64,000 bases of DNA from positions 62,001 through 126,000 of the forward strand of contig CALXBO010000001.1 of the NCBI GenBank assembly GCA_944386565.1, written 5' to 3'. A model generated the notes under the pieces. It did not search any database and was not told the origin of the DNA. It was given only the letters and a program-made list of their open reading frames with translations. The stretch comes from an uncultured Ruthenibacterium sp. GTDB lineage: Bacteria > Bacillota > Clostridia > Oscillospirales > Ruminococcaceae. The first letter of the stretch is position 1; each line of letters starts with the position of its first letter. The translations under genes and the position numbers were made by a program. Positions 5,139 to 64,000 of this stretch are shown piece after piece.

Positions 5139-5164
5139 GATGTCTCCTCCAATAAAATATGTCC

Positions 5165-5195
5165 ATAAAAATTCAAAAAGGGCACGCCCCTTTTT
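5165..5195 (-). terminator. riboswitch expression-platform terminator
   Basis: On the minus strand AAAAAGGGGC and GCCCTTTTT form a hairpin followed by a T-rich stretch, 27 bp upstream of the permease start codon. Its place between the purine aptamer and the start codon indicates transcription attenuation. Confidence 0.75.
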
Positions 5196-5280
5196 GCCAA
5201 AACAAAAAGCCGAACGAAGAGATTCTCCGTCCGGTATACCATGACTCAAAAGGGCGGCCCTTGGAAAACGATCCGCCTGA

Positions 5281-5352
5281 GTAATGATAGTCGGGCATTT
5301 TACGGATGCCCGGTAGAGACTGCCGGCCCTTATCGCCGGCGATATATCATAC
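5281..5352 (-). ncRNA. purine riboswitch aptamer (guanine class)
   Basis: Read on the minus strand: P1 strands GTATGATA and TATCATTAC (one bulge); P2 arms GCCGGC/GCCGGC with loop GATAAGG; the conserved TCTCTACC junction; P3 arms GGGCAT/ATGCCC with loop CCGTAAA; and J3/1 GACTAT. The C in GAC corresponds to the specificity base (C74 in the xpt aptamer), which selects guanine/hypoxanthine over adenine. It controls the downstream NCS2 permease. Confidence 0.95.
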
Positions 5353-5417
5353 GCAGTATGCAGTTTTTGACGACTTCCCGAGATCCTCACACGGATGTTC
5401 ACAAAAAATACATATTT

Positions 5418-5446
5418 ATTCTATTCGATTCAAAGCCGTCATACAA
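5418..5446 (-). promoter_or_regulatory. promoter of the riboswitch-permease transcript
   Basis: TTGTAT (5441-5446) and TAGAAT (5418-5423) on the minus strand are separated by 17 bp and lie about 65 bp upstream of the aptamer. The 405-bp gene-free stretch 5139-5543 is thus filled by this promoter, the riboswitch, its terminator and the SPFH terminator. Confidence 0.65.
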
Positions 5447-5503
5447 TGCGCTGATTCGACAAACTTTATTGTGTAAATCGCGCCGGCTGTACACAGAAAG
5501 ACG

Positions 5504-5533
5504 AAAAAACCCGCGCCGCAGGAGCGGCGCGGG
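5504..5533 (-). terminator. terminator of the nfeD-SPFH operon
   Basis: A perfect 10-bp stem CCCGCGCCGC/GCGGCGCGGG is followed on the minus strand by TTTTTT, directly after the SPFH stop codon. Confidence 0.88.
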
Positions 5534-5543
5534 GAAAAACGGA

Positions 5544-6446
5544 TTATTTTGCGGTGTCGGAAGAGACGATCTCCTTGGCACTTGCGAGAACTCCGGCGAG
5601 GTTCTGGATCTCGCTCGGAATGATGAGCTTGGTCGCCTTGCCGTCGGCAACCTTCTGAAGAGCTTCGAAGCTCTTGAGCGTGAGGACCTTCTGGCTGGGG
5701 TCGGCTTCGTTCAGCAGGCGGATGGAGTCGGCCAGAGCTTTCTGGACTTCCAGAATGGCCTGCGCCTCACCCTGAGCCTCACGGATGCGCTGCTCGCGCA
5801 CGGCGTCGGCGCGCAGGATGGCGCTCTCTTTTTCGCCCTCGGCCACGAGGATGGCGCTGCGCTTTTCACCTTCGGCGCGCAGGATGCTCTCGCGGCGCTG
5901 GCGCTCGGCCTTCATCTGCTTCTCCATCGCGTCCTGGATCTCTGCCGGCGGGATGATGTTCTTGACTTCGACGCGGTTGACCTTGATGCCCCACTTGTCG
6001 GTGGCTTCGTCCAGGATGGACGTGATCTTGCTGTTGATGATGTCGCGGCTGGTGAGCGTGTGGTCGAGCTCCATCTCACCGATGATGTTGCGCAGCGTGG
6101 TGGCGGTGAGGTTTTCGATGGCGGTCATCGGGCGCTCCACGCCGTAGGTGAAGAGCTTCGCGTCCGTGATCTGGAAGAACACGACGGTGTCGATCTGCAT
6201 GGTGACGTTATCACGCGTGATGACGGGCTGGGGCTTGAAGTCCACGACCTGCTCCTTGAGGGAGACTTTCTTGGCAATGCGGTCAATGAACGGGACCTTG
6301 AAGTGGAAGCCCGCGCCCCACGTCGTGCTGTAAACGCCCATGCGTTCCACAACGAACACGTACGCCTGCGGGACGATACGGATGTTGGCGATGGCTACGA
6401 TCACGGCGATCAGGATCAGCGCAAGAAAAATGTACAGTAACGGCAT
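5544..6446 (-). CDS. SPFH/band 7 membrane protein (paraslipin/stomatin type)
   Basis: A 300-aa membrane-anchored scaffold protein. One N-terminal hydrophobic segment (residues ~1-20) is followed by the SPFH domain (VPQAYVFVVERMG to about residue 185) and a charged helical region with repeated AEGE/RAEGEK motifs that drive oligomerisation in the family. SPFH proteins form membrane microdomains, often with an NfeD partner, and the gene just upstream is an NfeD protein. A TTG two codons upstream is possible, but it sits only 2 nt from AGGAGG; the ATG at 6446 has the normal 8-nt spacing. Specific cargo or substrate is unknown. Confidence 0.92.
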   Translation of the reverse strand: MPLLYIFLALILIAVIVAIANIRIVPQAYVFVVERMGVYSTTWGAGFHFKVPFIDRIAKKVSLKEQVVDFKPQPVITRDNVTMQIDTVVFFQITDAKLFTYGVERPMTAIENLTATTLRNIIGEMELDHTLTSRDIINSKITSILDEATDKWGIKVNRVEVKNIIPPAEIQDAMEKQMKAERQRRESILRAEGEKRSAILVAEGEKESAILRADAVREQRIREAQGEAQAILEVQKALADSIRLLNEADPSQKVLTLKSFEALQKVADGKATKLIIPSEIQNLAGVLASAKEIVSSDTAK

Positions 6447-7295: not shown

Positions 7296-8810
7296 ATGAA
7301 TTGTCCCATTTGCGGCAGCCGGCTCGAGCCCGGTGCGGCTTATTGCACGAGCTGCGGTGCACGTGTGGATGCGCCGGAGCAGAACGCTGCGCCCGGTCCT
7401 CAGACATACGAGCCGTCCCAGCCTGCGCAGGAGTCTGCGGCATCGCCGGATTTTGAACAGCCTTCTCCGGGACAGACTCCGCCCTACGGCCAGCCCGGAT
7501 ACGGGCAGGGGGCGTACCCGCCGCCGTACGGTGCGCCGCAGCCGGCGCCGATGTTCGATCCCACGGTGAATCCGTACTATGCGCGCGAGTTTGCGAACAT
7601 CTCCCAGACGGGCAGGTCGCGCTTCAACTGGGCGGCGTTCTTCCTCGGGCCGTATCAGGCGCTCTACCGGGGACACACCAAGCGCTTCCTGACGTTCTTT
7701 TTGCCGGTCATACTCGCGTCGGCTGCCTCGAGCCTGTGGTTTGCGTCGGCGTTCTACAAAATGGTGGGCATGGCGATCGTTGACCCGTGGTACGAGCCGG
7801 ATGAGGCGCAGCTCCTGTCGCTCGGAGTGGGGATTCTGCTGATCGGCCTCGTCGGTCTTGTGACGCTGGTTCTCTACATCGTGAACGGCTTTACCTTTAA
7901 TAAGAGCTATTATCATGCGCGCATGGGTGACCCGCACGTCCCGGCACACGGCGGCCGCGTGGCGATCCTGATCGTGCTGTGCGTGGCGTTCGGTATCGTC
8001 ACAAGTGTCCTTTCCGGTGCGTCGATGTTTGACGCGCTCGCGGAGACGGACTGGAATACACCGTATTCCTATGAGGATCCCTACGATGAATCCATCGGAG
8101 GGGACTCTTACAGCGATCCCAGCGTTATCCCTGTGGCGGGTGCGGGGCTGGACGATGTGCTCTCGCAGTACTCGTTCGTGACGTCCGACCAGACCTATTA
8201 TTTCGGTTACAATGATCTCGACGCATCGGACGACGTGTCGCTCGTCTCCAGTTCGATGCTGTTCTGCTCCGACGATGTGACGTTTGAGGACGCCCTCGCG
8301 GCGGGCTGCACGGATACGTGGTGGGAGTCTTACACGCCGGATGAATCTGTTCCGGACGACGGCTCGCGTTACTTCACATTCTATGGTACGCTCGGCGGCG
8401 ATGACATCGCGTTCGATGCAATGGCCGGAGGCGGCAACTTCATCCTGATTCAGGCATATGAGTGGAACGGAACGGAATATGCCGCGCTGAGCGAAGACCA
8501 GATGTGCGCGCTTGTGGCATATCTGTACGCCTGCGCCGGGTCGAGCGGTACGGCGCTTGCGTACGAGGTACGGGGCATCTGGGCGACGGACAGCGGCGAG
8601 GATTTCCTGCTCGACAGTGCGCTGCTGAACGGAAGCCCGTACATCCTTTGGTTCATTTCCGACGACATTCTGGCGGTTTATCTGGACGGGACGACGGATG
8701 TCTCCGGCGAGTATTACATGATGCTCGGCGATGACGATATCCTCAATGTCTGGCAGTATGATGAGGCCGGAAACATTGTTTCCGATATGTACTACTCCAG
8801 AATTGGCTGA
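7296..8810 (+). CDS. zinc-ribbon membrane protein with DUF2628-type domain and acidic C-terminal region
   Basis: 504 aa. Residues 3-20 form a zinc ribbon (CPIC...CTSC). A Pro/Gln/Gly-rich linker runs to about residue 95, then a DUF2628-like segment (RFNWAAFFLGPYQALYRGHTK) leads into three to four hydrophobic helices up to about residue 245. The C-terminal 250 residues are strongly acidic (many Asp/Glu/Tyr) and lack helices, so probably lie outside the cell. A GAAGGAGG site precedes the ATG. This build, a cytosolic zinc ribbon plus membrane helices plus ectodomain, is common in Clostridia, but no function is established. It is monocistronic with its own promoter and terminator. Confidence 0.85.
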   Translation: MNCPICGSRLEPGAAYCTSCGARVDAPEQNAAPGPQTYEPSQPAQESAASPDFEQPSPGQTPPYGQPGYGQGAYPPPYGAPQPAPMFDPTVNPYYAREFANISQTGRSRFNWAAFFLGPYQALYRGHTKRFLTFFLPVILASAASSLWFASAFYKMVGMAIVDPWYEPDEAQLLSLGVGILLIGLVGLVTLVLYIVNGFTFNKSYYHARMGDPHVPAHGGRVAILIVLCVAFGIVTSVLSGASMFDALAETDWNTPYSYEDPYDESIGGDSYSDPSVIPVAGAGLDDVLSQYSFVTSDQTYYFGYNDLDASDDVSLVSSSMLFCSDDVTFEDALAAGCTDTWWESYTPDESVPDDGSRYFTFYGTLGGDDIAFDAMAGGGNFILIQAYEWNGTEYAALSEDQMCALVAYLYACAGSSGTALAYEVRGIWATDSGEDFLLDSALLNGSPYILWFISDDILAVYLDGTTDVSGEYYMMLGDDDILNVWQYDEAGNIVSDMYYSRIG

Positions 8811-8824
8811 GGTTTTTTGCAATC

Positions 8825-8863
8825 AGAACGGTGCGCATAAAATACGGCGCACCGTTCTTTTTT
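8825..8863 (+). terminator. terminator after the zinc-ribbon gene
   Basis: A 12-bp perfect stem AGAACGGTGCGC/GCGCACCGTTCT with a 10-nt loop is followed by TTTTTT. Confidence 0.92.
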
Positions 8864-8998
8864 AATTCCTGAGCGAGTAAAGTTGCAGAAAATCAGCCAA
8901 AAGGTTTCAAAAAAGTGACAATTTGTTCATACATTAGGGCCAATTTTGTGCTATACTAAATAAATCAAAACAAAAAAGAGAAAGAAGGAGGGGGAAAG

Positions 8999-10372
8999 AT
9001 GCCTATCGACAAGAGCATCGACTATTCCGCCATCACGCCCGAGATCCGCGCACTGGGACAGAAGTGTGTGGACAACAGCCGCATTGCGCCGGAATGGTAC
9101 ACGCAGTACAAAGTAAACCGCGGTCTGCGCGACCTGAACGGAAACGGCGTTCTGACCGGCTTGACCGAGATCAGCGACATTGTGGCATTTGAGACGGTGG
9201 ACGGCCAGAAAAAGCCCTGTGAAGGCAAGCTCTATTATCGCGGCGTTGACGTTGAGGAGATCGTCAAGGGCTTCGTCAAAGAGAAGCGCTTCGGTTTCGA
9301 GGAAACGGTGTATCTGCTTCTGTTCGGCGAGCTGCCCAACCAGAAGGAGCTCAGTGAGTTTACCGAACAGCTCTCGTTCTACCGCACGCTGCCCACGAAC
9401 TTTGTGCGGGACATCATCATGAAAGCGCCCTCCGCCGACATGATGAATACGCTGGCGCGCAGCGTCCTCACGCTGTACGGCTACGACTCCGCGGCGAACG
9501 ACAATTCCGTGGACAACGTCCTGCGTCAGAGCCTTCAGCTGATCGCGCTGTTCCCGATGCTTTCGGTGTATGGCTATCAGGCGTACAACCACTATGTGAA
9601 GGGCAACAGCCTGTTCATCCACAACCCGGATCCGAACCTGTCCACAGCGGAAAACATCCTGCACATTCTGCGGCCGGATTCGAAGTACACCGAGCTCGAG
9701 GCGCGCATTCTGGATGTTGCGCTGGTGCTTCACGCCGAGCACGGCGGCGGCAACAACTCCACGTTCACGACGCACGTCGTCACCTCCTCCGGCACGGATA
9801 CGTATTCCACGATCGCCGCGGCACTGGGCAGCCTGAAGGGGCCGAAACACGGCGGTGCGAACATCAAGGTCGTTCAGATGTTTGAGGACATGAAGAACAC
9901 GCTGACCGACTGGCACGACGAGGAGCAGATCTCCGAGTACCTCCGCGCGCTGCTGAACAAGGAGGCGTTCGACAAGCAGGGCCTCATCTACGGCATGGGT
10001 CACGCGGTGTATTCGCTCAGCGACCCGCGCGCCAATGTGTTCCGCCACTTTGTCGAGAGCCTTGCTTCCGAGAAGCACCGCGAGGACGAATACGCGCTGT
10101 ATGCGGCCGTCGAGCGCCTTGCTCCGAAGATCATCGCCGAGGAGCGCCGTATTTATAAGGGCGTTGCCGCGAACATCGACTTCTACAGCGGCTTTGTTTA
10201 CAGCATGCTGGATCTGCCGCTGGAACTGTACACGCCGATTTTCGCCATCAGCCGCATCGCGGGCTGGAGCGCGCACCGCATCGAAGAGCTGATCAACGCG
10301 GGCAAGATCATCCGTCCCGCATACAAAAACGTCGGCGAGCGCCACGAATATGTGCCGCTTGCAGAGCGCTGA
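8999..10372 (+). CDS. citrate synthase
   Basis: 457 aa; condenses acetyl-CoA with oxaloacetate. The active-site regions are recognisable: HAEHGGGNNSTF near residue 245 (first catalytic His region), IYGMGHAVYS near 330 (second His), and ANIDFYSGFVY near 395 (catalytic Asp). It is slightly longer than the common type II enzyme, with an extended N-terminus typical of the clostridial branch. The start has AAGAAGGAGGGGG. No aconitase or isocitrate dehydrogenase lies nearby, so it probably feeds 2-oxoglutarate/glutamate synthesis rather than a full cycle; that is inference. A TATACT at 8952-8957 could be its -10 box, but no good -35 is seen. Confidence 0.94.
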   Translation: MPIDKSIDYSAITPEIRALGQKCVDNSRIAPEWYTQYKVNRGLRDLNGNGVLTGLTEISDIVAFETVDGQKKPCEGKLYYRGVDVEEIVKGFVKEKRFGFEETVYLLLFGELPNQKELSEFTEQLSFYRTLPTNFVRDIIMKAPSADMMNTLARSVLTLYGYDSAANDNSVDNVLRQSLQLIALFPMLSVYGYQAYNHYVKGNSLFIHNPDPNLSTAENILHILRPDSKYTELEARILDVALVLHAEHGGGNNSTFTTHVVTSSGTDTYSTIAAALGSLKGPKHGGANIKVVQMFEDMKNTLTDWHDEEQISEYLRALLNKEAFDKQGLIYGMGHAVYSLSDPRANVFRHFVESLASEKHREDEYALYAAVERLAPKIIAEERRIYKGVAANIDFYSGFVYSMLDLPLELYTPIFAISRIAGWSAHRIEELINAGKIIRPAYKNVGERHEYVPLAER

Positions 10373-47724: not shown

Positions 47725-48303
47725 TCATTCTGCCGTGAAAAATTTCGGAGCCGCCTTATAAAGCAGCACCGCCGCAATCGTGGTGAGAACGAGTTCCGGC
47801 AGCATGTACGTGGCGTTGTAGATGAAGCTGTAGAGCCACACGCTCATGCCCTTGGCCCACTCGTAGTACTCCTGATAGCTGCCCCACAGAAGAGCGCCGG
47901 ACAGGAAGCTGCACAAGAAGCGGATGACGCACACAGCCGCGGTTCCGACGGCCACGCCGACGGCGCGGTTGCGGAAGAAGCGGGCGAACCAGTCGGCCGA
48001 ACCCAGCAGCGTAAACGCGAGGACGTAGTCCAGCATCACAACGCCGATGAACGCGATCACCGTGCCGGCGGGAGGTGCGTAGAAGCCCAGCAGCATCTGC
48101 AGCAGCGCGTCCACAAAGCCCGTCATCAGGCCCCACTTGACGCCGTGGCGGAACGAGACGAGCACGAACGGCAGCATCGACAGCAGCGTCACGCTGCCGC
48201 CGTACGGCATCGAGAAGATGCTGATTTTGCCGAGCACCGTGCCGACGGCGATCATCAGTGCGCACTCCACCAAAGTGCGCGTGCGGTTATACGTTTTGGT
48301 CAT
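47725..48303 (-). CDS. thiT: energy-coupled thiamine transporter S component
   Basis: 192 aa with six hydrophobic helices. ALMIAVGTVLGKISIF, MPYGGSVTLLSMLPFVLVSFRHGVKWG and the Trp/Tyr-rich region YYEWAKGMSVWLYSFIYNATYM are typical of ThiT, the thiamine-binding subunit of ECF importers; the shared ECF energising module lies elsewhere. The TPP riboswitch and terminator in its leader strongly support thiamine as substrate. GGAGGGGTCATGTC precedes the ATG at 48303. Confidence 0.96.
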   Translation of the reverse strand: MTKTYNRTRTLVECALMIAVGTVLGKISIFSMPYGGSVTLLSMLPFVLVSFRHGVKWGLMTGFVDALLQMLLGFYAPPAGTVIAFIGVVMLDYVLAFTLLGSADWFARFFRNRAVGVAVGTAAVCVIRFLCSFLSGALLWGSYQEYYEWAKGMSVWLYSFIYNATYMLPELVLTTIAAVLLYKAAPKFFTAE

Positions 48304-48335
48304 GACATGACCCCTCCAAATGATAATGTAACATA

Positions 48336-48376
48336 AAAACAAAAGTGCGCCCGCGGCATAAAAACCGCGGGCGCAC
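48336..48376 (-). terminator. TPP riboswitch-controlled terminator
   Basis: Stem GTGCGCCCGCGG/CCGCGGGCGCAC with an 8-nt loop, followed on the minus strand by TTTTGTTTTT, between the TPP aptamer and thiT. Confidence 0.92.
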
Positions 48377-48406
48377 TGAGCTTTGCTTTCTTTGTACAAG
48401 ACCGGC

Positions 48407-48503
48407 AAAAACTCCCTACGCCGGCATTACCCGGATCAGGTAAGAAGGGTCTATGACGCCGCGCACGGCTGTCAAATCTAAGCCTTTCGGCCCCCCTGTT
48501 TTT
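48407..48503 (-). ncRNA. TPP riboswitch (THI element)
   Basis: Read on the minus strand: P1 AAAAAC/GTTTTT; GGGGGGCC near the 5' end; the distal arm TACCTGATCCGGGTAATGCC; and the 3' consensus GCGTAGGGAGT. These are the classic THI-box elements (CTGAT and TAATGCC binding the pyrimidine and phosphate arms). It attenuates thiT when thiamine pyrophosphate is plentiful. Confidence 0.97.
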
Positions 48504-48516
48504 ATGTCCGTTCTTT

Positions 48517-54762: not shown

Positions 54763-57162
54763 TTATTTCCGTTTCGATCCGCCGGTGAACAAGCTCGTGA
54801 TCGCATGGCCGAAAGCCTTGCACTCGGACACGAACGCCTGCCCGAAACGGGAGCCGAAGCCGGAATTGGAGGTGTTCTGATAGAGCGTGAATCCTTTCAC
54901 GATCAGAACAAGGACGAGGACGAGCTGCGCGATCGACAGCAGGGCGATGACGATGTTGCCGATCAACGGGACATGCACGGTGCGGAATGCCTGCACGAGG
55001 ACAGTCGTCAGGATGATCCCCAGCAGATACCGGGCGCAGCGCGCGAAATCGCCGTCGAACGAGGCCTGACGCGCCTGTTCCGCGCGAAGGTTTTCCTGTT
55101 CGGCCTGCTGCCGGTTCAGCTCGTTCTCCGCGGCCGACAGGTCGTTCAGCAGCTGCTGGGAAACGGTGTAGCCGCCCTGCTTGGCCTGTTCGAAATAACG
55201 GCGGGCCTGCGCGAGGTCCTTCGGCATACCCAGTCCGTAGAGGCTGCAGCGGCCGAGGCCCGCCCATGCAGGCGCCGCGAACTCGTAGCGCGCATCCGCC
55301 GAACGGTAGTATTCGATGGCGCGGTCGTAATCGACCGGCGTGCCGATGCCGAACAGATAGCAGTTGCCGAGGATGGACGCAAAGCAGATGGAAGCGGGGC
55401 CGCCCATTTCGGAAATCGCCGCCTGATGGGCGTTGTATGCTTCCTGCGCCCAGTAGAACGTCTGAGCGGGATCGCGGTCGTCGCGGACGAGCATATAGTC
55501 AGCGATGTTTGCGGCGGCATAGGCGTACTGCACGATCGCGTTCCGCTTCAGGTCGTACTCGCCCTCGGGGCGGGTGCGGGCGGCAGCCTGATACCATTTG
55601 ATCCCGTTCACAACGTCCTTCTTTGCACCGCGCTCTTCCAGATAGCAACGTGCGAGCAGGTACTGGGAGGACACGTTGCCGGACGCGGCCAGCCGTCCCA
55701 GATGCTGCAGGGAATCGCCGGGATTCTTGGAGGAGCACAGGTCAAACAGCGCCTGTGCGAAATCGCAGCTTGCGGCTTTTTCCAGCCAGCGGCGCTTTTC
55801 GGGGTTGGAGTCTGCCGTGCCCTCCAGACAGAGATTGGCGTAACTGTACATCGCTTCAATATAGCCGTTTTCTGCGGACGTGCGCAGCCAGCGTGCGGCT
55901 TCGGAGGGATTCGCCTGCACCCCGTCGCCGTGATGCAGACACACGCCCAAATAGTACGCCGCCTTGGAACTGCCGCGCTCTGCGGCCTGACGCAGGAAAG
56001 GTACCGCCTGATCCGGGGCCTGTGAGAGCAGCGCGATCCCTTTTTCACACAAGTCGTCCGACTCGATCCATGACGCGGCATGCTCGTTGCCCATCAGCGC
56101 GGCACACTCCGCCCACAGGCGGCGCCGGGTGTACGACGTGCAGTTGCAGAACAGCCATTCGGCGCGGTCGCTCGTAACGGGCAGCCCGTTCACCGTGCCG
56201 TAATTGTCGGCATCGTCATCGAGAAGCAGATTGATCGCGTCCTGATAGACGCGGAAGGTGTGGAGCGTCATGCCTTCCGGAACGGGCGGGGTCGAAGTTG
56301 CGGGCGGGAATTGATACAGCGCCAGCAGCAGACGGGCAATTTCGGGCGCGCCGCGGACGATCCATGCATCCTCCACGTCTTTGGCGGGGATCTTGCCGGA
56401 TTCCCGGGAATCGAGGACGATCTGCGCGCGGACGCGCAGGAACATGTCTTCCGCCGAGTGGATCACTTCGTCGAGAAGAGAGCACGCATACACGGGCTTG
56501 GATTCCAGAAGTTCCAGAGCGAGTTCATATTTGACGGATTCGTCGCCGTTCTCGGCCGCGCGCTTCACCCATGTGTCGGCCTGTGCGGCATTCGCCGCGC
56601 ACCCGTAGCCGGTGCGGGAATAGCGGGCGAGGACGAGCGCTGCCTCGGCGCTGCCGAGCTCACTGGCAAGACCGTAATAGCGCGCGCTCTCCTTCGGGTT
56701 TTCAAGCGGAGCCTTGGAGAAGAGTTCGCCCAGCTGCAGGAAGATGCGCTGCTCCTGTTCGGCCGTGTAGACGGACTGTCCGACGTTCTTTTCCGCGCGC
56801 TGCAGATAGGAGAGGGCGGATTCGCTGTCGTTCATTGCAAGGCTGTTCTGAGCCATCGCCAGGATGGCAGCAGGGTCTCCCTCTTCGGCGAGACGGCGCT
56901 GCTGATAGAGGGGAAGCTCTTCGACGGATGAAGTATCCGCGGCCATCTCCGGTTCGCGGGAGTCGGCCAGTTCCTGACGCGCCTGTTCGCTGCCCGCCTG
57001 TGCGGCAGCTTCCAGATTCGAGCGGTACAGTTCTTCGCTGACGTCCGTGCCTTTGCCGAGACGGTAGCACTGTGCGATGGCGTACAGGGCGTCGGCGCTG
57101 TCGGGGTCGATTTCGGGATCGTCGAGCAGTTCGTTCAGATTCATTTCCTCATACAGATACAT
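54763..57162 (-). CDS. Sel1/TPR-repeat protein with C-terminal membrane helices
   Basis: 799 aa. Many Sel1-like helical repeats run from ~10 to ~680, the clearest being AAYYLGVCLHHGDGVQ, EAARWLRTSAENGYIEAMYSYANLCLEG, SQYLLARCYLEERG and GLGRCSLYGLGMPKD. A short coiled coil (~685-710, Glu/Gln-rich) is followed by two hydrophobic segments near 720-765, so the repeats face the cytosol. Start chosen at 57162 (GGAGG ten bases upstream); an ATG three codons earlier is too close to that site. It lies 16 bp after the duplicated-domain membrane protein. Sel1 repeats scaffold signalling complexes; partner unknown. Confidence 0.85.
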   Translation of the reverse strand: MYLYEEMNLNELLDDPEIDPDSADALYAIAQCYRLGKGTDVSEELYRSNLEAAAQAGSEQARQELADSREPEMAADTSSVEELPLYQQRRLAEEGDPAAILAMAQNSLAMNDSESALSYLQRAEKNVGQSVYTAEQEQRIFLQLGELFSKAPLENPKESARYYGLASELGSAEAALVLARYSRTGYGCAANAAQADTWVKRAAENGDESVKYELALELLESKPVYACSLLDEVIHSAEDMFLRVRAQIVLDSRESGKIPAKDVEDAWIVRGAPEIARLLLALYQFPPATSTPPVPEGMTLHTFRVYQDAINLLLDDDADNYGTVNGLPVTSDRAEWLFCNCTSYTRRRLWAECAALMGNEHAASWIESDDLCEKGIALLSQAPDQAVPFLRQAAERGSSKAAYYLGVCLHHGDGVQANPSEAARWLRTSAENGYIEAMYSYANLCLEGTADSNPEKRRWLEKAASCDFAQALFDLCSSKNPGDSLQHLGRLAASGNVSSQYLLARCYLEERGAKKDVVNGIKWYQAAARTRPEGEYDLKRNAIVQYAYAAANIADYMLVRDDRDPAQTFYWAQEAYNAHQAAISEMGGPASICFASILGNCYLFGIGTPVDYDRAIEYYRSADARYEFAAPAWAGLGRCSLYGLGMPKDLAQARRYFEQAKQGGYTVSQQLLNDLSAAENELNRQQAEQENLRAEQARQASFDGDFARCARYLLGIILTTVLVQAFRTVHVPLIGNIVIALLSIAQLVLVLVLIVKGFTLYQNTSNSGFGSRFGQAFVSECKAFGHAITSLFTGGSKRK

Positions 57163-57178
57163 AGCAAACATTCCTCCC

Positions 57179-58345
57179 TCAAGAAGATGTGGTTTCGCTC
57201 ATGTCGCTCAGGTCGATTTCAGAGATCGCGCCGTATTCGCGGCGCACTTCGAAACGCACGTCGTCCAGTGTGTCGTACAGGGTGTAGCTTGCGCCACAGT
57301 CTTTGAACGAAAGGACTTCTGTCGCGTTTGCCTTCGCGTCGCGGTATTCGATGGCCCAGATGCTTGTATCGGAGATCGGGCACGCGGGATCGGTTTCGAT
57401 GTTGTCGTTCGTGCGGTAGACGCCGGAGACCTCGAGCGCGATGAAAATGCGGCTCTCGATGCCGATCGACGGCTCTGTCACAAGAACGCACAGAGGTTTG
57501 ATCGTGTACTGGTCCGTGTACCAGTCGACGATGACATAGTTTCCGGCATAACGGTTCGTCAGAGCATTGTTGACGTCAAACGCGGCGCCGTTGCTGTCTC
57601 CGAGAAGCCCGGCCATGCTGCGGGAGGCAAAATCCGCCAGAGAAGCACGGACGGAATCGGACGGCTGCGCGGACGGCGTGATGTAATATTCGTCGGACGA
57701 GACCGTGTACGTCATCGAATCGCGCGACAGCTTCATCCGGTATTCATCGCAGGCGGAAGAATCTACTTCGGCGGTGAATGTGACGGTATCACCTGTCGCG
57801 AGGTCGTAATCGCGGTCCACGGAGATGCGGACGCAGGCGAGGAAGGGGCTGTCGTCCATCTGGGCGTATGTCAGGCTGATGTCCGGGCTTGCGCCTTCCG
57901 TCTTGACCTCGAGAGACGCGAACGGGTCGACTTCTTCGTAGTCGGGAACGTCAACGGTATAGGTGTATTTCGTATCGGAGAGCTTCATTTTATACTCGTC
58001 GCACACCGATTGATCCACACTGGCGCGGAATGTCACCGTGTCTCCGTTTTTCAGCTCCGAAAGATGTTCCGGGACAGTGTACTCGACGGACTGCAGGAAC
58101 GGGGTGTCCGGTTCCCAGCTCACCTCCAGCGAAATGTCGGGGCTTTCGCCGTGGGCTTCAATCTGCAGGGTGGCAAACGGATCGACCGCTTCATACCAAG
58201 CGCGGCGCACTGCATTTCCCGCGACGGTCACCAGGGCAATCACGAGAAGAAGCACGACGGCAGCCGCGACGATTTTCCGCCCGGTCTGCACCGAGACATT
58301 GGACTGCTTTCCGTCACCGGCGGGTTCATGACGATTTTCTGCCAT
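57179..58345 (-). CDS. single-pass membrane protein with a duplicated extracytoplasmic domain
   Basis: 388 aa. After ~25 polar residues there is one membrane helix (~25-46). Two copies of a ~80-aa module follow: DPFATLQIEAHGESPDISL and DPFASLEVKTEGASPDISL, each followed by a GDTVTF strand and CDEY(K/R)MKLS. A C-terminal domain (~220-388) has no family I recognise. The module looks like an all-beta domain of the type called 'YARHG-less' or DUF-type in clostridial surface proteins; I cannot name it. GAGGAG precedes the ATG at 58345. Divergent from the kinase operon with a 244-bp gap, and likely a sensor for it (inference). Confidence 0.8.
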   Translation of the reverse strand: MAENRHEPAGDGKQSNVSVQTGRKIVAAAVVLLLVIALVTVAGNAVRRAWYEAVDPFATLQIEAHGESPDISLEVSWEPDTPFLQSVEYTVPEHLSELKNGDTVTFRASVDQSVCDEYKMKLSDTKYTYTVDVPDYEEVDPFASLEVKTEGASPDISLTYAQMDDSPFLACVRISVDRDYDLATGDTVTFTAEVDSSACDEYRMKLSRDSMTYTVSSDEYYITPSAQPSDSVRASLADFASRSMAGLLGDSNGAAFDVNNALTNRYAGNYVIVDWYTDQYTIKPLCVLVTEPSIGIESRIFIALEVSGVYRTNDNIETDPACPISDTSIWAIEYRDAKANATEVLSFKDCGASYTLYDTLDDVRFEVRREYGAISEIDLSDMSETTSS

Positions 58346-58532
58346 ATAAAACACTCCTCAAACACCAGATTTTTGCTTTCACATTTTGTATCGTGCGGCG
58401 TTTGTGCGAAGTTAAAGAACTTTTCGAAAAATTTTTTCAGAATGCGTTTAACTCTTCCGCAAGACGTGCCGATATTACTGTTATCATAGCGCACTTTGAG
58501 AAAAAGTGCCATAGATGCAAAGAAAAAACCGC

Positions 58533-58561
58533 TTGTCGGCCTTTTGCCGTGATGCTATACT
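58533..58561 (+). promoter_or_regulatory. promoter of the kinase-vWA-PP2C operon
   Basis: TTGTCG (58533-58538), 17 bp, TATACT (58556-58561). A hairpin (GCACTTT/AAAAGTGC, 58491-58509) lies just upstream, between this promoter and the divergent gene, and may be an operator. Confidence 0.75.
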
Positions 58562-58589
58562 GAAATGAAAGAGTCAGGAGGAATTCTAT

Positions 58590-61500
58590 ATGGGGGAAAA
58601 AGAACTCAAGATTCAGGATGCAACCGAGCGTGCCAACGAACTTTCGCTTTTGTCGCACGAACTGCTTTTGACCGTTTCGAGTTTTCTCCGGAAGTGTTAT
58701 CTGCTTGCGATTCCGCCCGAACAGTTTGTGGACTTCTGGTGCGCCGTTTGCTGTAAGACCACAACCGTGAAGAATTATAAGGGCAACTCCACCGTCAAGG
58801 AGTATCCCTCGATCATAGACCGCCCGGAGCTGACGAAAGGCAGGTTCTTATCGCATGACGTGCAGGAGCAGATTGATAAGATCCCGTTTTCCAGGCTCAA
58901 CAGCATGGACAATGCGGAGTTCTGCGCCTTGTTGAGAGAAGGGCTTCCCGCCGTTCCGGACGAAGATCTCCGCCGCAACCTGCTGGATCTGGCGGATCTG
59001 GCCGCTCTGTTCAAAATGAATATTGTGCTCAAGAATTCCGGTATGGATGTGGACTTCTTCGGGATGCTGCGCAGCCGTTTTCCGCTTCTGAAATCGAAGA
59101 CGGAAGAGAGATGGGAAACGGAGAACTCGAGCGCGCTTGAGCTGCGCAACCGCTGGGGCGGCCACGTCAACGGAAGAACGTTCCGCTCGCCGAAAAGCAA
59201 TGTGTGTATTTCCGAGAGCGTGTGGCAGGCTTCCAGCGGCGCATGGCTGAACCTGGCGAAGTCTCTGCGGATTCCGGAGACGGAAGCGGAGTATCAGCGC
59301 ATCATGGCTGTCCGCGAGAAGGCGAAGAAGCGGATGAAATGCCGGCTGATCCCGCTCAGCGAACTCGCGGAGAAGAGCGGCTGCTATACGGCCGAACAGG
59401 TGAAACAGATCCTGACGGAGTACTATCACTATGAGTGCACGGGCGACACGATCTTCTGCAACGAGGAGGAGGCGCTGGGCAGCCTGAGCGATCACGCCCG
59501 GCAGGAGGCTCTGCATGCGGAATTGCAGAATATGCAGAAAGAACTGGAGCGGATCAAAGCGGCTGCGCCGGGCAATGCGGAAGCGCTGCTGCTCAAATAT
59601 CTGCGTCAGAACAGCGGTTCGGTCAGGACGGACCTTCTCGTCGCGTATCAGGGCGGAAGTATGGACCGGCGCACGCTGCAGCAGCTGGCGGAAACGCACA
59701 AGATCGTTCTCGACGCCTCTCTGCTCAAACGCCGTGAGGGCCGGACGTTCGTCATGGACGAACTGCGCCCCGCACTCGAGCGCTGCGGTCGGAGCCTGCA
59801 GTCGGCTCTGATCGTGGAGGCCACGGCCATGTACAACTTAATGAAGGGGTATATGGAGTTCCAGTCCGCGGGCAAGAAACTCCGGACACTGGTGCAGACG
59901 CCCGCGAACCGAGCCGAACGCGAACGGCTGCAGGCACGCTGTGATGAGCTTGCAGGAACAAAAGCTGCCTACCTGTTCGCACGCGATGAGCTGCGCCTGA
60001 TCCCGACGGGCATCCCCGATCCGCTGCTCGGCGAGGAGATGTCACTGATCGAATACCTGAGCACGCATCCGCTCGACCGCTTCTGCGTTCTGACGTGCGG
60101 GGCGACGGGGCTTGTAAAGCGCATTTCGTGCGATCAGCTGCCGCTTGTCCGCGTGGGCCGTGTGCGCAGTGCGGGCGACGGTTCCGTGTGCAGCATTTTC
60201 TCTCAGTTCCTTCCCTTCGAAAGCGAGGAGAAAGAAGCGGACAGCCTGAAAGAGGTCTTCGAGGAGATCGAAGAATCCCTGCCCGGGGAGAAGACGCAGC
60301 CCGCTGCAGAGCCTGAAGAACCGGCAGCACCGGCGGAAGCGGAAACGCCTGAACCGGCGAAGCCGTCTCCGGAGCCCGCCCCGGCGTCTGAAAAGACAGT
60401 GCAAATGCCGCAAACCGGCACAGCCGTCCGCCATGCATCCGAGCCGTTTGCGCCGGATCTTCCTCTCAAGACGATGGATGAGACGCTGCTTCCCCTCAGC
60501 CGGGAGCCCCGCGCCGGAGACGTGCTTCGGACGGAAGATGGCGCGAGTGTCACGCTTGTCTCGCCGCTGATGGAGGGCGGCGAAGAGGCGCGCGGCGGCG
60601 AGGGCGCCGTGTATGTGGCGAGCCTTCCCGACGAGGTGGCGAAAATCTATTTCGCCGACCATCTGACGGCGGGGCGCCGCGACAAACTGACGGAGATGCT
60701 GCGCCACGATCCCGGCCTTGAGGGGTTGTGCTGGCCGACGCATCTTCTGTACAACGACGCGGGCGAATTTGTCGGTTATACGATGCTGCGCGCACCGGAG
60801 AGCGCCATGCCGTTCTCGAAATCGGTGCTCAAAATCGGCAGCCCCTCTCAGCGCGGGGCATACATGAGCAAGTGGACGCGGTCGGACCTCGTGCGCGCGG
60901 CGCGCGGCGCGGCACAGCTTCTGGCGGGCCTGCACCGCAGCAACATCCTGATGGGCGACGTCAACGCGGGCAACTTCATGGCCGATCTGAACGACAGCAG
61001 CCGCGTGTATGCGGTCGACACCGACAGTTTCCAGCTCGGCGGCTATCCGTGCCCGGTCGGTTTTGAGGACTTCACGCATCCCGGTACGGCGGCGCGCCTC
61101 GGCGTGAGCGGCGGACTGCGCTTCGGCACCTTCCTGCGCACGCAGGAGGAAGAGGAGTACGCGCTGGCGATTTTGCTGTTTGAGATCCTGTTCCTCGGCG
61201 CGAACCCGTTTGTGACGAAATCCGAGATGACTTACATTGAGGCGATGCGCACGCGGAACTTCCCGTACGCCAACACGGGAGACGAGTGGACCGTACCCGA
61301 CGGCGACAACTGGATGATCTGGAAGAACCTTCCGCGCAAGATCACGGACGCATTCACGGCGACGTTTGCCGAGTGGAAGACGACGAGCGCGCAGAACTGG
61401 GCGCAGCTGATGGACACGTATCTGTACAGCATTGAGCACTTCAATTTCAGCGACGAGCTCGCGCCCGTCAAGTACCATGAATTCCACCCGGAAGATCCGG

Positions 61501-62216
61501 TCTACGTGGACGTCAGCTGTGCGTACTGTCACAAGGAATTCAACGTGCACAAAAAGCGCTATGCGGACCTCAAGCGGTTCGGGCGGCCGGTGCTCTGCCG
61601 CGAGTGCACGAACTTCCTGAACCTGCACCGGGAAAGACCCTATCCGGAGCTTATGAAGTGCACCAGGTGCGGCGTGCGCTTCAAGGCGACCGTGGGCGAC
61701 GCGTTCTACGCCGAAGCGGGCATCGAGCCCGCACTGTGCCCGGACTGCCGCAATCCCGAGACAACGTGCGCGGGCTGCGGGCAGAAGTTCCGCATTCCCT
61801 ACGATCAGCTGGAGCGTCTGACCGCCCGGAAAGCGCCTGTCATCTGCAAGGATTGCCGCGGCAGCGAGACGGTGACGTGCCAGAGCTGCGGAAAGACGTA
61901 CGAGGAAAAGACGTGGAAAGTACGCCAGAACCGCAGGCTCGGCCGGGAGCTGTTCTGCGACGAGTGCCGTGAGCAGACCGACGCGGTGTGCGATGTGTGC
62001 GGCAAGACCTACAAGTCCGCGCGCTGGCGCATTCTCAAAAACAAAAACGAAAACTGGCCGGGTCTGTGCGAGACGTGCCGCCGGCTGGAGTCCGTGACGG
62101 TTCCCTGCGATTCCTGCGGGGACGACGTCACCGTGCCGCTCAAGGTGTTCCGCGGACGTAGGCACAACAACCAGCAGATTCTCTGCAGCACGTGCTACCG
62201 CAATTCGTTCCGCTGA
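58590..62216 (+). CDS. protein-kinase-like protein with six C-terminal zinc modules (TerY-P-type kinase)
   Basis: 1208 aa. Residues 1-~560 are mostly helical, with a coiled coil near 305-330 and no recognised domain. An Ala/Glu/Pro-rich linker lies at ~570-625. The kinase domain (~645-930) has a Gly-loop GGEGAVYV (~670), candidate Lys in AKIYF (~684), catalytic loop MGDVNAGNF (~788) replacing HRDxxxxN, metal-binding DTDSF (~809) replacing DFG, and EEEYALAILLFEILF. From ~973 six consecutive CxxC...CxxC zinc modules run to the C-terminus. AGGAGGAATTC precedes the ATG. The adjacent vWA and PP2C genes match the TerY-P triad described by comparative genomics. Substrate unknown. Confidence 0.85.
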   Translation: MGEKELKIQDATERANELSLLSHELLLTVSSFLRKCYLLAIPPEQFVDFWCAVCCKTTTVKNYKGNSTVKEYPSIIDRPELTKGRFLSHDVQEQIDKIPFSRLNSMDNAEFCALLREGLPAVPDEDLRRNLLDLADLAALFKMNIVLKNSGMDVDFFGMLRSRFPLLKSKTEERWETENSSALELRNRWGGHVNGRTFRSPKSNVCISESVWQASSGAWLNLAKSLRIPETEAEYQRIMAVREKAKKRMKCRLIPLSELAEKSGCYTAEQVKQILTEYYHYECTGDTIFCNEEEALGSLSDHARQEALHAELQNMQKELERIKAAAPGNAEALLLKYLRQNSGSVRTDLLVAYQGGSMDRRTLQQLAETHKIVLDASLLKRREGRTFVMDELRPALERCGRSLQSALIVEATAMYNLMKGYMEFQSAGKKLRTLVQTPANRAERERLQARCDELAGTKAAYLFARDELRLIPTGIPDPLLGEEMSLIEYLSTHPLDRFCVLTCGATGLVKRISCDQLPLVRVGRVRSAGDGSVCSIFSQFLPFESEEKEADSLKEVFEEIEESLPGEKTQPAAEPEEPAAPAEAETPEPAKPSPEPAPASEKTVQMPQTGTAVRHASEPFAPDLPLKTMDETLLPLSREPRAGDVLRTEDGASVTLVSPLMEGGEEARGGEGAVYVASLPDEVAKIYFADHLTAGRRDKLTEMLRHDPGLEGLCWPTHLLYNDAGEFVGYTMLRAPESAMPFSKSVLKIGSPSQRGAYMSKWTRSDLVRAARGAAQLLAGLHRSNILMGDVNAGNFMADLNDSSRVYAVDTDSFQLGGYPCPVGFEDFTHPGTAARLGVSGGLRFGTFLRTQEEEEYALAILLFEILFLGANPFVTKSEMTYIEAMRTRNFPYANTGDEWTVPDGDNWMIWKNLPRKITDAFTATFAEWKTTSAQNWAQLMDTYLYSIEHFNFSDELAPVKYHEFHPEDPVYVDVSCAYCHKEFNVHKKRYADLKRFGRPVLCRECTNFLNLHRERPYPELMKCTRCGVRFKATVGDAFYAEAGIEPALCPDCRNPETTCAGCGQKFRIPYDQLERLTARKAPVICKDCRGSETVTCQSCGKTYEEKTWKVRQNRRLGRELFCDECREQTDAVCDVCGKTYKSARWRILKNKNENWPGLCETCRRLESVTVPCDSCGDDVTVPLKVFRGRRHNNQQILCSTCYRNSFR

Positions 62217-62250
62217 GCGCGGCATACTATGACGGGAAAGAAGGGGTTTT

Positions 62251-62934
62251 ATGTCGATCATCAGCGATATGATGCTTCACGATCAGGAACTCAGCAACAA
62301 TAAGAGCAAGCGCATCCTCATCTGCCTGTGCGTGGACTGTTCCGCGTCCATGCTGCGCGACGGGGCGATGCAGCAGGTCAACAGCGGCATCGAGATGTTC
62401 TTTGAAAAGACCAATCGCAGCACGCTCGCGCGCGACGCGGCGGATATCTGCATCGTCTCGTTCGGCGACACGGCGCGCGTCGTCTGTGACTTCGGGCCTT
62501 TGGAGAAAGCAATGTCACAGGTGCGCCGCGAGCCCATCCGGGCCAACGGAGCACAGACCGTGCTGGCGGCGGGCGTCAATCTGGCGCTCGACCGTCTGGA
62601 CGCGCACCTCGCCGAGCTTGCGGCCGTGAACAACAATGCCTATGTGCCGTGGCTCATCATCATCAGCGACGGAGATTCCACCGAACCGTCCGAACTCGTC
62701 GGAAAAGCGGCGGCGCGCGTGCAGGAGATGCTGCGCGCACGCCGGCTGAAAACGATGTGTCTGAACATGGGCGAGGGAAGCCGCAGCCTGAATGCGTTCG
62801 CAGAGAACGGATCGGTCGGCCGGCTCGAGAATCTGAAAGTTGTGGACTTCTTCGAGATGCTCAGCCGCAGCGTTTCCGAGACGAGCAAACAGGTCATCGA
62901 GAGCGGCGGCCCCGACTTCTCCGTGCAGGGATAA
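62251..62934 (+). CDS. von Willebrand factor A domain protein (TerY-like)
   Basis: 227 aa, essentially one vWA domain. The MIDAS metal site is intact: CVDCSASM (DxSxS near residue 29), the Thr region ANGAQTVLAAGV, and IIISDGDST. No signal peptide or membrane helix, so cytosolic, as for TerY proteins. It probably mediates metal-dependent protein contact within the kinase/phosphatase complex. It is 34 bp after the kinase gene and 22 bp before the PP2C gene. Confidence 0.92.
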   Translation: MSIISDMMLHDQELSNNKSKRILICLCVDCSASMLRDGAMQQVNSGIEMFFEKTNRSTLARDAADICIVSFGDTARVVCDFGPLEKAMSQVRREPIRANGAQTVLAAGVNLALDRLDAHLAELAAVNNNAYVPWLIIISDGDSTEPSELVGKAAARVQEMLRARRLKTMCLNMGEGSRSLNAFAENGSVGRLENLKVVDFFEMLSRSVSETSKQVIESGGPDFSVQG

Positions 62935-62956
62935 AACGGCGAAAGGAGACGAGCGG

Positions 62957-63727
62957 ATGATGAAAACGGCAGTTGCCGTGCGGCGCGGCACGAGCCATCT
63001 GCTGCGGGGCGCGCCCTGTCAGGACAGCGCGGCGGGAACGTCGCAGCGCCCCTGTGCGGCCGTAGCTCTGTGCGACGGCGCGGGCAGCCGGGAGCATTCG
63101 GAGCTCGCGGCGCAGCGCCTGTGCACATGGGCGGCCGAATGGCTGCCCGAAGCATTCGACGAGCTGTACGCGTTGGAAGAAGACGATGCGGCCACGGCGA
63201 TTCTCCGGGAGGGGCTTGCGCAGCTGGACGCTCTCGCGATGACGCGCGATGAGTGCCTGTGCACGTTCCTCGCGTTTGCCCGCCATGAGGACGGGCGCTG
63301 GCTGATGGCGCACATCGGCGACGGATACATCTTTGCGCCGGACGAAGTGCTGTCCTATCCCGAAAACGGGATGTACGCGAACGAGACGTACTTCTTCAGC
63401 GGCCCGCACGCCGCGGAGCATCTGCGCGTGAGAAAGGGCTTTGACAGCGGCGCGACGGCGGTGCTGCTCACGAGCGACGGATGCGGAGATTCGCTGTACG
63501 ACCAACCGGCAGACCGTCCGTCTCCCGCGGTGCGCAAGCTCTGCCTGGGTCTCGGTTCCCACACGGAGGAGGAAGCGCGGGAGGCTCTTGCGTACAACCT
63601 GTCCGAAGTGTTCGCCGGGCGCAGCGACGACGACCTGAGCCTTGCGCTGCTCTGGTGCGCGCCGCCGGAACCCGCTTTTTCCACAGATTTTCCGGGCGAA
63701 ATGCCTGAGAGGAGAGATCCCGAATGA
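62957..63727 (+). CDS. PP2C-family serine/threonine phosphatase
   Basis: 256 aa. Metal ligands appear in CQDSAAG (the N-terminal Asp), ALCDGAGS, AHIGDGYIF, LTSDGCGDS and GRSDDDLSLAL (the C-terminal Asp pair). It should dephosphorylate the targets of the neighbouring kinase. The start has AAAGGAGACGAGCGG before ATGATG. Its stop overlaps the next gene by 4 nt, so that gene belongs to the same unit. Confidence 0.92.
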   Translation: MMKTAVAVRRGTSHLLRGAPCQDSAAGTSQRPCAAVALCDGAGSREHSELAAQRLCTWAAEWLPEAFDELYALEEDDAATAILREGLAQLDALAMTRDECLCTFLAFARHEDGRWLMAHIGDGYIFAPDEVLSYPENGMYANETYFFSGPHAAEHLRVRKGFDSGATAVLLTSDGCGDSLYDQPADRPSPAVRKLCLGLGSHTEEEAREALAYNLSEVFAGRSDDDLSLALLWCAPPEPAFSTDFPGEMPERRDPE

Positions 63728-64000
63728 AACGAATTTATGTGACGGCCGTGCCGCTTGAGAGCAACTTTGTGCTCGAACCGAAATACGCCGAACCTGCGAA
63801 TTTTTCTCTGCGCAATGCGCCGCGCGCGGCGGCGTTCCCCATCATTCCCGTGCTGGAGGACACAGTGCGTGAGGGCGACAGCGTGAAGGTGATCACGGTG
63901 CGTCAGAAAAATGCGCCGGAGAACAGAAACATGGACATTCTCCGCCGGGAGATCGGCGCGCTCGGCCTGCCGGACTGCACGATCTGCGACGTCACGGTCG
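63724..64000 (+). CDS. unrecognised protein, 3' end outside window
   Basis: The first 92 codons are visible, starting MKRIYVTAVPLESNFVLEP. The start overlaps the PP2C stop (ATGA), so it is a fourth operon member. Alternating strands (AFPIIPVLEDTV, DSVKVITVRQ) and a following charged helix (NMDILRREIGALGL) suggest an alpha/beta, Rossmann-like fold, possibly ligand-binding. I recognise no family from the visible part. Confidence 0.75.
   Translation, partial: MKRIYVTAVPLESNFVLEPKYAEPANFSLRNAPRAAAFPIIPVLEDTVREGDSVKVITVRQKNAPENRNMDILRREIGALGLPDCTICDVTV

Follow-up and report, generated by a model that had tools for sequence, protein, structure and literature searches.

A TerY-P-type Triad with Candidate Receptor Genes and a CARF-Sigma-like Pair in an Uncultured Ruthenibacterium Species

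Introduction

The TerY-P system, as defined in PMC11090510 with reference to Anantharaman et al. (2012), is a triad encoded in one operon by genes for a TerY-like von Willebrand factor A (vWA) protein with a metal ion-dependent adhesion site (MIDAS), a PP2C phosphatase and a kinase with C-terminal zinc ribbons. A triad of this type is described here from a 64,000-nucleotide stretch of an uncultured Ruthenibacterium species (assembly GCA_944386565.1, contig CALXBO010000001.1, positions 62,001 to 126,000; hereafter the window). It was found beside two candidate receptor genes and is followed by genes for a stand-alone CARF protein and a divergent sigma-70-like protein, termed SIG. The closest functional analogue of this cassette is CalpL-CalpT-CalpS, a transcriptional output of type III clustered regularly interspaced short palindromic repeats (CRISPR) systems that relies on proteolysis for the release of a sigma factor by a sensor of cyclic nucleotides (PMC11229360). 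Control of a sigma factor by a cyclic-nucleotide sensor would be common to both, as is proposed below for the cassette, but Calp employs a SAVED-Lon protease and an anti-sigma factor, whereas the cassette has a bare CARF protein and a phospho-switch, with no protease or Cas10 found. Csa3, in which CARF is fused to a winged helix-turn-helix (HTH), also couples CARF to transcription control; its DNA-binding part is fused, whereas the cassette has a separate sigma-like partner. In the literature searched, neither such a CARF-sigma pair, nor its link to TerY-P, nor the Sel1 receptor was found described, which does not prove their absence from the literature overall.

Gene Content and Conservation of the Locus

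The genome has a size of 2.43 Mb and is 99.3% complete, with the window located within contig C1, which extends 13.3 kb beyond the window end. An earlier note, made from the letters of the window alone, had described six genes, and every open reading frame (ORF) was recovered at its coordinates. Two are encoded on the minus strand, namely a Sel1-repeat protein of 802 amino acids (aa) (54763-57171) and a protein of 391 aa with a duplicated ectodomain (57179-58354). The plus strand encodes a Ser/Thr-kinase-like protein of 1208 aa (58590-62216), a TerY-like cytosolic vWA protein of 227 aa (62251-62934), a PP2C phosphatase (62957/62960-63727) and, as the fourth gene, a CARF2-type CARF protein of 207 aa which runs past the window end (63724-64347; L002:1724-2347, L-numbers being the labels of compared loci). 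To this list was added a further coupled gene downstream, outside the window, that of SIG (349 aa; 64357-65406; L002:2357-3406). The genes of the triad are separated by gaps of 34 bp and 22–25 bp. Because the CARF start and the PP2C stop overlap by 4 bp and SIG begins 9 bp after CARF, the kinase, vWA, PP2C, CARF and SIG genes probably form a single operon.

The earlier note had proposed listing the rest of the operon past position 64000, naming ter genes, effectors and nucleases. Extension of the contig completed the fourth gene and added SIG, and no ter genes, nucleases, integrases or effectors were detected in the additional 13.3 kb. Downstream of SIG lies an unrelated LacI/ABC sugar-uptake/GH36 cluster. 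A LacI-family regulator gene just downstream of the cassette was seen in two genomes (L002:3519-4550 and L020:13169-14173), probably by chance.

The complete set of genes was found to be contiguous in six species of approximately four genera, in three arrangements (the window, L020 and L122–L125). In L020, from Candidatus Gemmiger faecavium, seven genes occupy 11.7 kb, with those of the ectodomain, Sel1-like, kinase, vWA and PP2C proteins co-directional and CARF-SIG divergent. Loci L122–L125 were obtained from a family-wide kinase search in which 9 of 397 genomes were positive; in these the PP2C-vWA-kinase genes are divergent from a gene encoding a Sel1 part, a transmembrane (TM) segment and an ectodomain, which CARF-SIG follow. 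Across the complete loci, identity to the window proteins is 53–61% for CARF, 35–44% for SIG, 32–56% for vWA, 37–59% for PP2C and 28–39% for the whole kinase.

According to the earlier note, the three parts beyond the core triad (the fourth gene, the ectodomain and the Sel1 protein) would be an accident of this genome if their homologues were scattered and rarely adjacent to the triad; they were instead found contiguous with it in six species. An accidental neighborhood of unrelated genes is given some room by the close relationship of the kinases in five of the six complete loci, three of which share one genus and layout. It is nevertheless very improbable, being largely refuted by six contiguous loci and by retention of the same parts across three arrangements, while the CARF family is present in only ~1–4% of sampled genomes and this kinase family in ~2% of its taxonomic family; the shared promoter-like motif and the receptor fusions described below also argue against it.

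Strong kinase matches among 35 CARF-bearing genomes were confined to those of the window and L020. In a kinase tree, the clade around the window kinase comprises eight loci, six of them with CARF-SIG and two (L109 and L121) without. The latter (L109:869-9026 and L121:310-7364) each represent the second TerY-P copy, with a Sel1 receptor, of a genome that also carries a CARF-SIG cassette, so that each of these genomes is predicted to have two paralogous receptor-kinase systems.

The TerY-P Triad

The earlier note's reading of kinase, zinc modules, vWA and PP2C in one operon as a TerY-P triad was upheld by profiles, motifs and gene gaps. The family profile of the kinase reaches protein kinases in PDB and its active-site motifs are complete. 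An N-terminal region of ~600 aa and a C-terminal zinc-ribbon array were recognized in this protein, with 12 CxxC pairs within the last 320 residues; zinc-ribbon or treble-clef matches are weak in the protein itself and somewhat clearer in its relatives. The vWA protein matches VWA_2 (5.4e-7) and its MIDAS (DxSxS, here DCSAS) aligns with that of relatives. The phosphatase matches PP2C_2 (E 1.1e-33) with the metal-ligand motifs DGAGS, SDG and DD all present. The three genes are kept together in relatives. Judged by these sequence features, the window triad corresponds to TerY-P in the definition of PMC11090510. No match of the kinase, vWA or PP2C proteins to PADLOC TerY-P models was obtained, with a library whose coverage of TerY-P was not checked.

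The window triad differs from the described form in having no ter genes, helicase or nuclease partner and in the long N-terminal region of its kinase, while it adds a membrane receptor or scaffold and a putative CARF-sigma output. A TerY-P system with an McrB-type GTPase, a coiled-coil nuclease and a helicase likewise ties the triad to a nucleic-acid-related system, but none of those three is present in the window cassette. Because other triads of Clostridia (L071, L072–L078 and L127) lack receptor, CARF and SIG genes in the stretches examined, where their contexts are different, the extended cassette is a subset of the TerY-P triads of this class.

Two further observations were made among these triads. 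In L074, the gene directly before those of a TerY-P-type kinase and a vWA protein (8104-9117) encodes a TIR-domain protein that weakly matches Sel1 repeats. In genus g143 (L072, L073 and L075–L077), the kinase-vWA-PP2C triad is accompanied by a conserved fourth gene with a RKYEILPGV-type motif and occupies a constant position amid housekeeping genes, as would be expected of a core rather than an accessory system; terminal CxxC pairs are absent from the two kinases checked (L072 and L075).

Candidate Receptor Components

The Sel1-repeat protein (Pfam Sel1 1.1e-29) has a C-terminal TM segment at about residue 740 and is a candidate membrane relay or scaffold. The neighboring protein has a single TM segment near residue 28 and is a candidate receptor ectodomain; its duplication, as reported in the earlier note, was confirmed as two tandem domains with 54% identity over 81 aa (E 2e-28). 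In L018 and L109, Sel1 part, TM segment and ectodomain form a single protein, the ectodomain in L018 being homologous to that of L020 (4.6e-18) and to that of the window (3.9e-6). As the two parts are fused in relatives, the window Sel1 and ectodomain genes can be linked, and the best explanation is that their products together are equivalent to the single protein. The outside-to-inside layout that had been suggested for this locus is thereby better supported than before, since the fused receptor-like protein stands beside the triad.

In L122–L125, two NPCBM domains (E 6e-16 to 1.6e-21) take the place of the ectodomain in the Sel1-TM protein, while the N-terminal motif of the inner Sel1 part is conserved. 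Such swapping of domains outside the membrane, observed in four relatives, fits what a receptor family would show. The NPCBM domain is described as a putative carbohydrate-binding module, and the NPCBM ectodomains suggest a glycan rather than a phage signal.

Locus L018 also carries a gene for a WYL-domain regulator (4633-5883) upstream of its TerY-P triad with the Sel1-TM-ectodomain gene. WYL regulators are common near defense genes.

The CARF Protein

The earlier note placed the fourth gene in the triad operon, as confirmed by its overlap with PP2C, but considered it to be of unknown family; it was found to encode a stand-alone CARF domain. Profile matches were obtained to PADLOC CARF2--CARF (2.5e-62) and Csx1 (7e-11). 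No solved structure was found for it by sequence search. An AlphaFold2 model built from 17 relatives had a predicted local distance difference test score (pLDDT) of 90.9, and its best structural match was the CARF domain of Csx1-Crn2 bound to cyclic tetra-adenylate (cA4) (8y7g; Z 16.6, 3.1 Å over 174 residues). The structural match list is filled with CARF proteins, and ring nucleases also match (Sis0811, Z 11.8; Sso2081, Z 10.5). Membership of the CARF superfamily is firm. Residues T123, G125 and K127 are invariant in the 17 relatives and presumably belong to the ligand site known for the family.

The SIG Protein

Matches of SIG as a single sequence are weak, with hits of region 4-like sequence below threshold. 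The family profile against PDB retrieved mainly sigma factors (SigA 2.1e-4, SigI6 5.8e-3), and a Sigma70_r2 match was found in 4 of 23 family members, the best at 1e-4. With Foldseek, the matches listed were sigma factors or their RNA polymerase complexes, at E values of ~0.02 and above. In its N-terminal part, SIG has a structural match to the sigma2 region of SigI6 (Z 7.3, 89 residues), and for the middle part and C-terminal HTH only short structural matches were obtained, such as 3mzy (74 aa) and 1sc5 (49 aa). From these profile and model comparisons, SIG is a probable member of the sigma-70 family.

CARF-SIG Pairs in Other Genomes

With the CARF alignment, 34 CARF loci were identified among the 84,980 species genomes scanned. 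A SIG-family gene directly follows CARF in 31 of these, another gene in two (L049 and L051), and one locus is truncated. In a control run over all 2024 ORFs of the CARF loci, the SIG profile matched only genes after CARF, and a profile built without the window's own clade still recovered its SIG at 2.2e-12. SIG is missing from just two full CARF loci (L049:7046-7645 and L051:7010-7591), where a small secreted protein is encoded after CARF.

The interpretation of CARF domains is, almost without exception, that they receive cyclic oligoadenylates made by CRISPR systems. Because Cas10d is present within the examined flanks of 16 CARF loci, with III-D RAMP genes and CARF-HEPN effectors, and was matched in 27 of 35 genomes searched (23 strongly), CARF-SIG is typically a type III-D accessory. 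The pairs of type III-D loci (L022, L023, L035–L037, L050 and others) have homologous CARF and SIG genes in the same order as the window but adjoin Cas10d and RAMP genes, neither of which accompanies the cassette form. No Cas10 was detected in the window genome with PF22335 or by Cas10d search, nor was any found in the genomes of L020 (G819) and L021 (G820). As no Cas10 was found, the window cassette is not an ancillary module of type III CRISPR, and its CARF-SIG pair is without a CRISPR partner. In the CARF tree, the six TerY-P-linked proteins form one group, with L021 and then the type III-D relatives next. This fits a single recruitment, in a tree whose last split has modest support (81/0) and whose root is arbitrary.

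The CARF protein might alternatively be a ring nuclease or other enzyme which clears a nucleotide signal, instead of a sensor controlling SIG. Crn1 and other CARF-only proteins are ring nucleases (PMC12409355), and the matches to Sis0811 and Sso2081 agree with this; on the other hand, the model matches the CARF sensor of Csx1-Crn2 best, pairing with SIG in nearly all loci suggests control of a partner, and no Cas10 was found to supply a ring for cleavage. An enzymatic role of this kind is considered improbable, though less so than a chance assembly of the locus.

Promoter-like Motif

The divergent intergenic regions were found to contain two mirror-image copies of TTTAAC-N17-CTATA about an A5T6 center, a dyad observed in five loci. 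In the window both arms read CGATA, with one copy on the minus strand at 58389-58416, 35 bp upstream of the ectodomain gene, and one on the plus strand at 58447-58474, 116 bp upstream of the kinase gene. In 1.09 Mb of collected loci, TTTAAC-N17-C[T/G]ATA has 11 exact hits at spacing 17 compared with 0–2 at spacings 12–16 and 18–23. After removal of duplicate loci nine hits remain, eight of them in cassette intergenic regions. The copies stand in the correct orientation upstream of kinase, receptor and CARF-SIG genes; the motif was not found upstream of CARF-SIG in CRISPR loci. In the 1.22 Mb of the window's own genome that were searched, TTTAAC-N17-CGATA is present in four exact copies at spacing 17, with none at 13–16 or 18–21: two at the cassette, one upstream of a 169-aa ORF and one inside a sortase-like gene.

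Single copies outside a dyad were identified upstream of the Sel1 gene in L121 and of lipoprotein genes in L122, L124 and L125. The motif also precedes neighboring genes for lipoproteins with Ig-like (Big_2-type) domains, exactly in L124 (15373-16500) and L125 (14510-15439) and with one mismatch in L020 (11775-12638) and L122 (13725-15122), which makes these genes a possible output of the system. The copy upstream of the 169-aa ORF (L149:19209-19236; C5, ~79.2 kb) lies 60 bp from it and may mark a further target.

A sigma-A-like promoter match (TTGTCG-17-TATACT with extended -10) is present at 58533-58561 on the plus strand, nearer the kinase gene than the motif. It is an ordinary match, and matches of this type are no commoner than in shuffled sequence. 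The dyad was also considered as a structured RNA. This was rejected, since folding gave weak, inconsistent z-scores (window, -0.7) and a spacing fixed at 17 bp agrees better with promoters.

A different explanation is that SIG is a sigma-derived DNA-binding regulator and the motif a sigma-A promoter with an overlapping operator which SIG or CARF represses or activates. TTTAAC-N17-CTATA contains TTAACN-N17-TATAA at near sigma-A spacing, two copies form the dyad in five loci, the similarity of SIG to sigma factors is partial and weak, and the -10 elements of the window copies are poor (GATATT/GATACA). However, several loci have separate sigma-A-like -10 boxes of better quality closer to the genes, and the single copies in L121, L122, L124 and L125 fit a promoter better than an operator. 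We regard regulation of this type as a tentative second choice to recognition of the motif by SIG as a promoter.

Genomic Setting and Possible Anti-phage Role

The main rival to a signaling role is an anti-phage system, in which TerY-P would sense infection, a CARF-SIG pair responsive to cyclic oligonucleotides would start protective transcription and the receptor would sense the envelope during attack. Protection by TerY-P-type systems has been reported against T7-like phages (PMC7699616) and P. aeruginosa phages (PMC10889362), and both PMC11090510 and PMC7699616 cite Gao et al. (2020) for antiphage activity of TerY-P. A paper of 2013 (PMC3710099) had pointed to CARF-nuclease proteins in a TerY-dependent system. 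The patchy distribution and the otherwise mostly CRISPR-linked CARF family are also in keeping with defense. Against this, the cassette is without a nuclease or other effector, no Cas10 was found in the genome, the triad proteins have no PADLOC TerY-P match and the carbohydrate-binding-type NPCBM ectodomains point to a glycan signal. A defense-island setting was considered and is not supported, the flanks consisting of metabolic genes. On balance defense is doubtful, with a standing similar to that of the operator explanation above.

In a search for an empty site, the stretch after RarA varied among the eight genus members examined and no clean insertion boundary was found. Kinase matches were absent from phage records, and in plasmids only distant kinase-domain matches were obtained.

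Proposed Signal Flow

The locus can be read as one conserved regulatory cassette of three modules: a receptor (ectodomain protein and membrane-anchored Sel1-repeat protein), a phospho-switch (zinc-ribbon kinase, TerY-like vWA protein and PP2C) and an output (stand-alone CARF and SIG). A signal from outside or from the envelope would change the receptor, whose Sel1 part would relay it to the kinase/phosphatase pair. Phosphorylation and a nucleotide bound by CARF may then jointly release or activate SIG, which would guide RNA polymerase to TTTAAC-N17-C[T/G]ATA promoters, thereby amplifying the cassette and, in several relatives, also turning on the secreted Ig-like lipoprotein. For the cassette together with this flow of signal, the chances appear evenly balanced. 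A more specific version, somewhat less likely, is that a CARF-sigma pair was rewired, free of CRISPR, to a TM receptor and a Ser/Thr phospho-switch, so that external (possibly glycan) and internal nucleotide signals jointly govern the regulon of an alternative sigma factor, which would have a promoter class of its own.

Several points weigh against the three-module cassette and its signal flow. Taken singly, each comparison of SIG with sigma factors gives weak similarity (Foldseek E ~0.02; predicted template modeling score, pTM, 0.42). Because the motif was noticed after inspection of the regions, its counts indicate how specific it is but do not amount to a blind test; the copies at lipoprotein genes were found later. 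With a shift of one base the motif looks like a sigma-A promoter (TTAACN-N17-TATAAN), and for this reason its use by SIG is something we infer. Interaction of CARF with SIG and phosphorylation of either by the triad would each be an additional step. Receptor topology and the direction of signaling are predicted from hydrophobicity only, and the kinase relatives in L109 and L121 have a receptor but no adjoining CARF-SIG.

The three-module cassette would provide TerY-P with candidate input and output sides; in the literature searched, the flow of signal through TerY-P is hypothetical. A CARF protein with a sigma-like partner, joined to TerY-P and a receptor, is conserved in genomes without detected Cas10, which raises the questions of which ligand CARF binds, which targets TerY-P phosphorylates and whether a nucleotide-gated sigma factor operates outside CRISPR. 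The promoter-like motif could serve as a reporter.

Other Features of the Window

Two ordinary riboswitches were identified elsewhere in the window, both on the minus strand: a thiamine pyrophosphate (TPP) riboswitch at 48396-48507, which immediately precedes a thiamine-transporter-like gene (47725-48408), and a purine riboswitch at 5268-5369.

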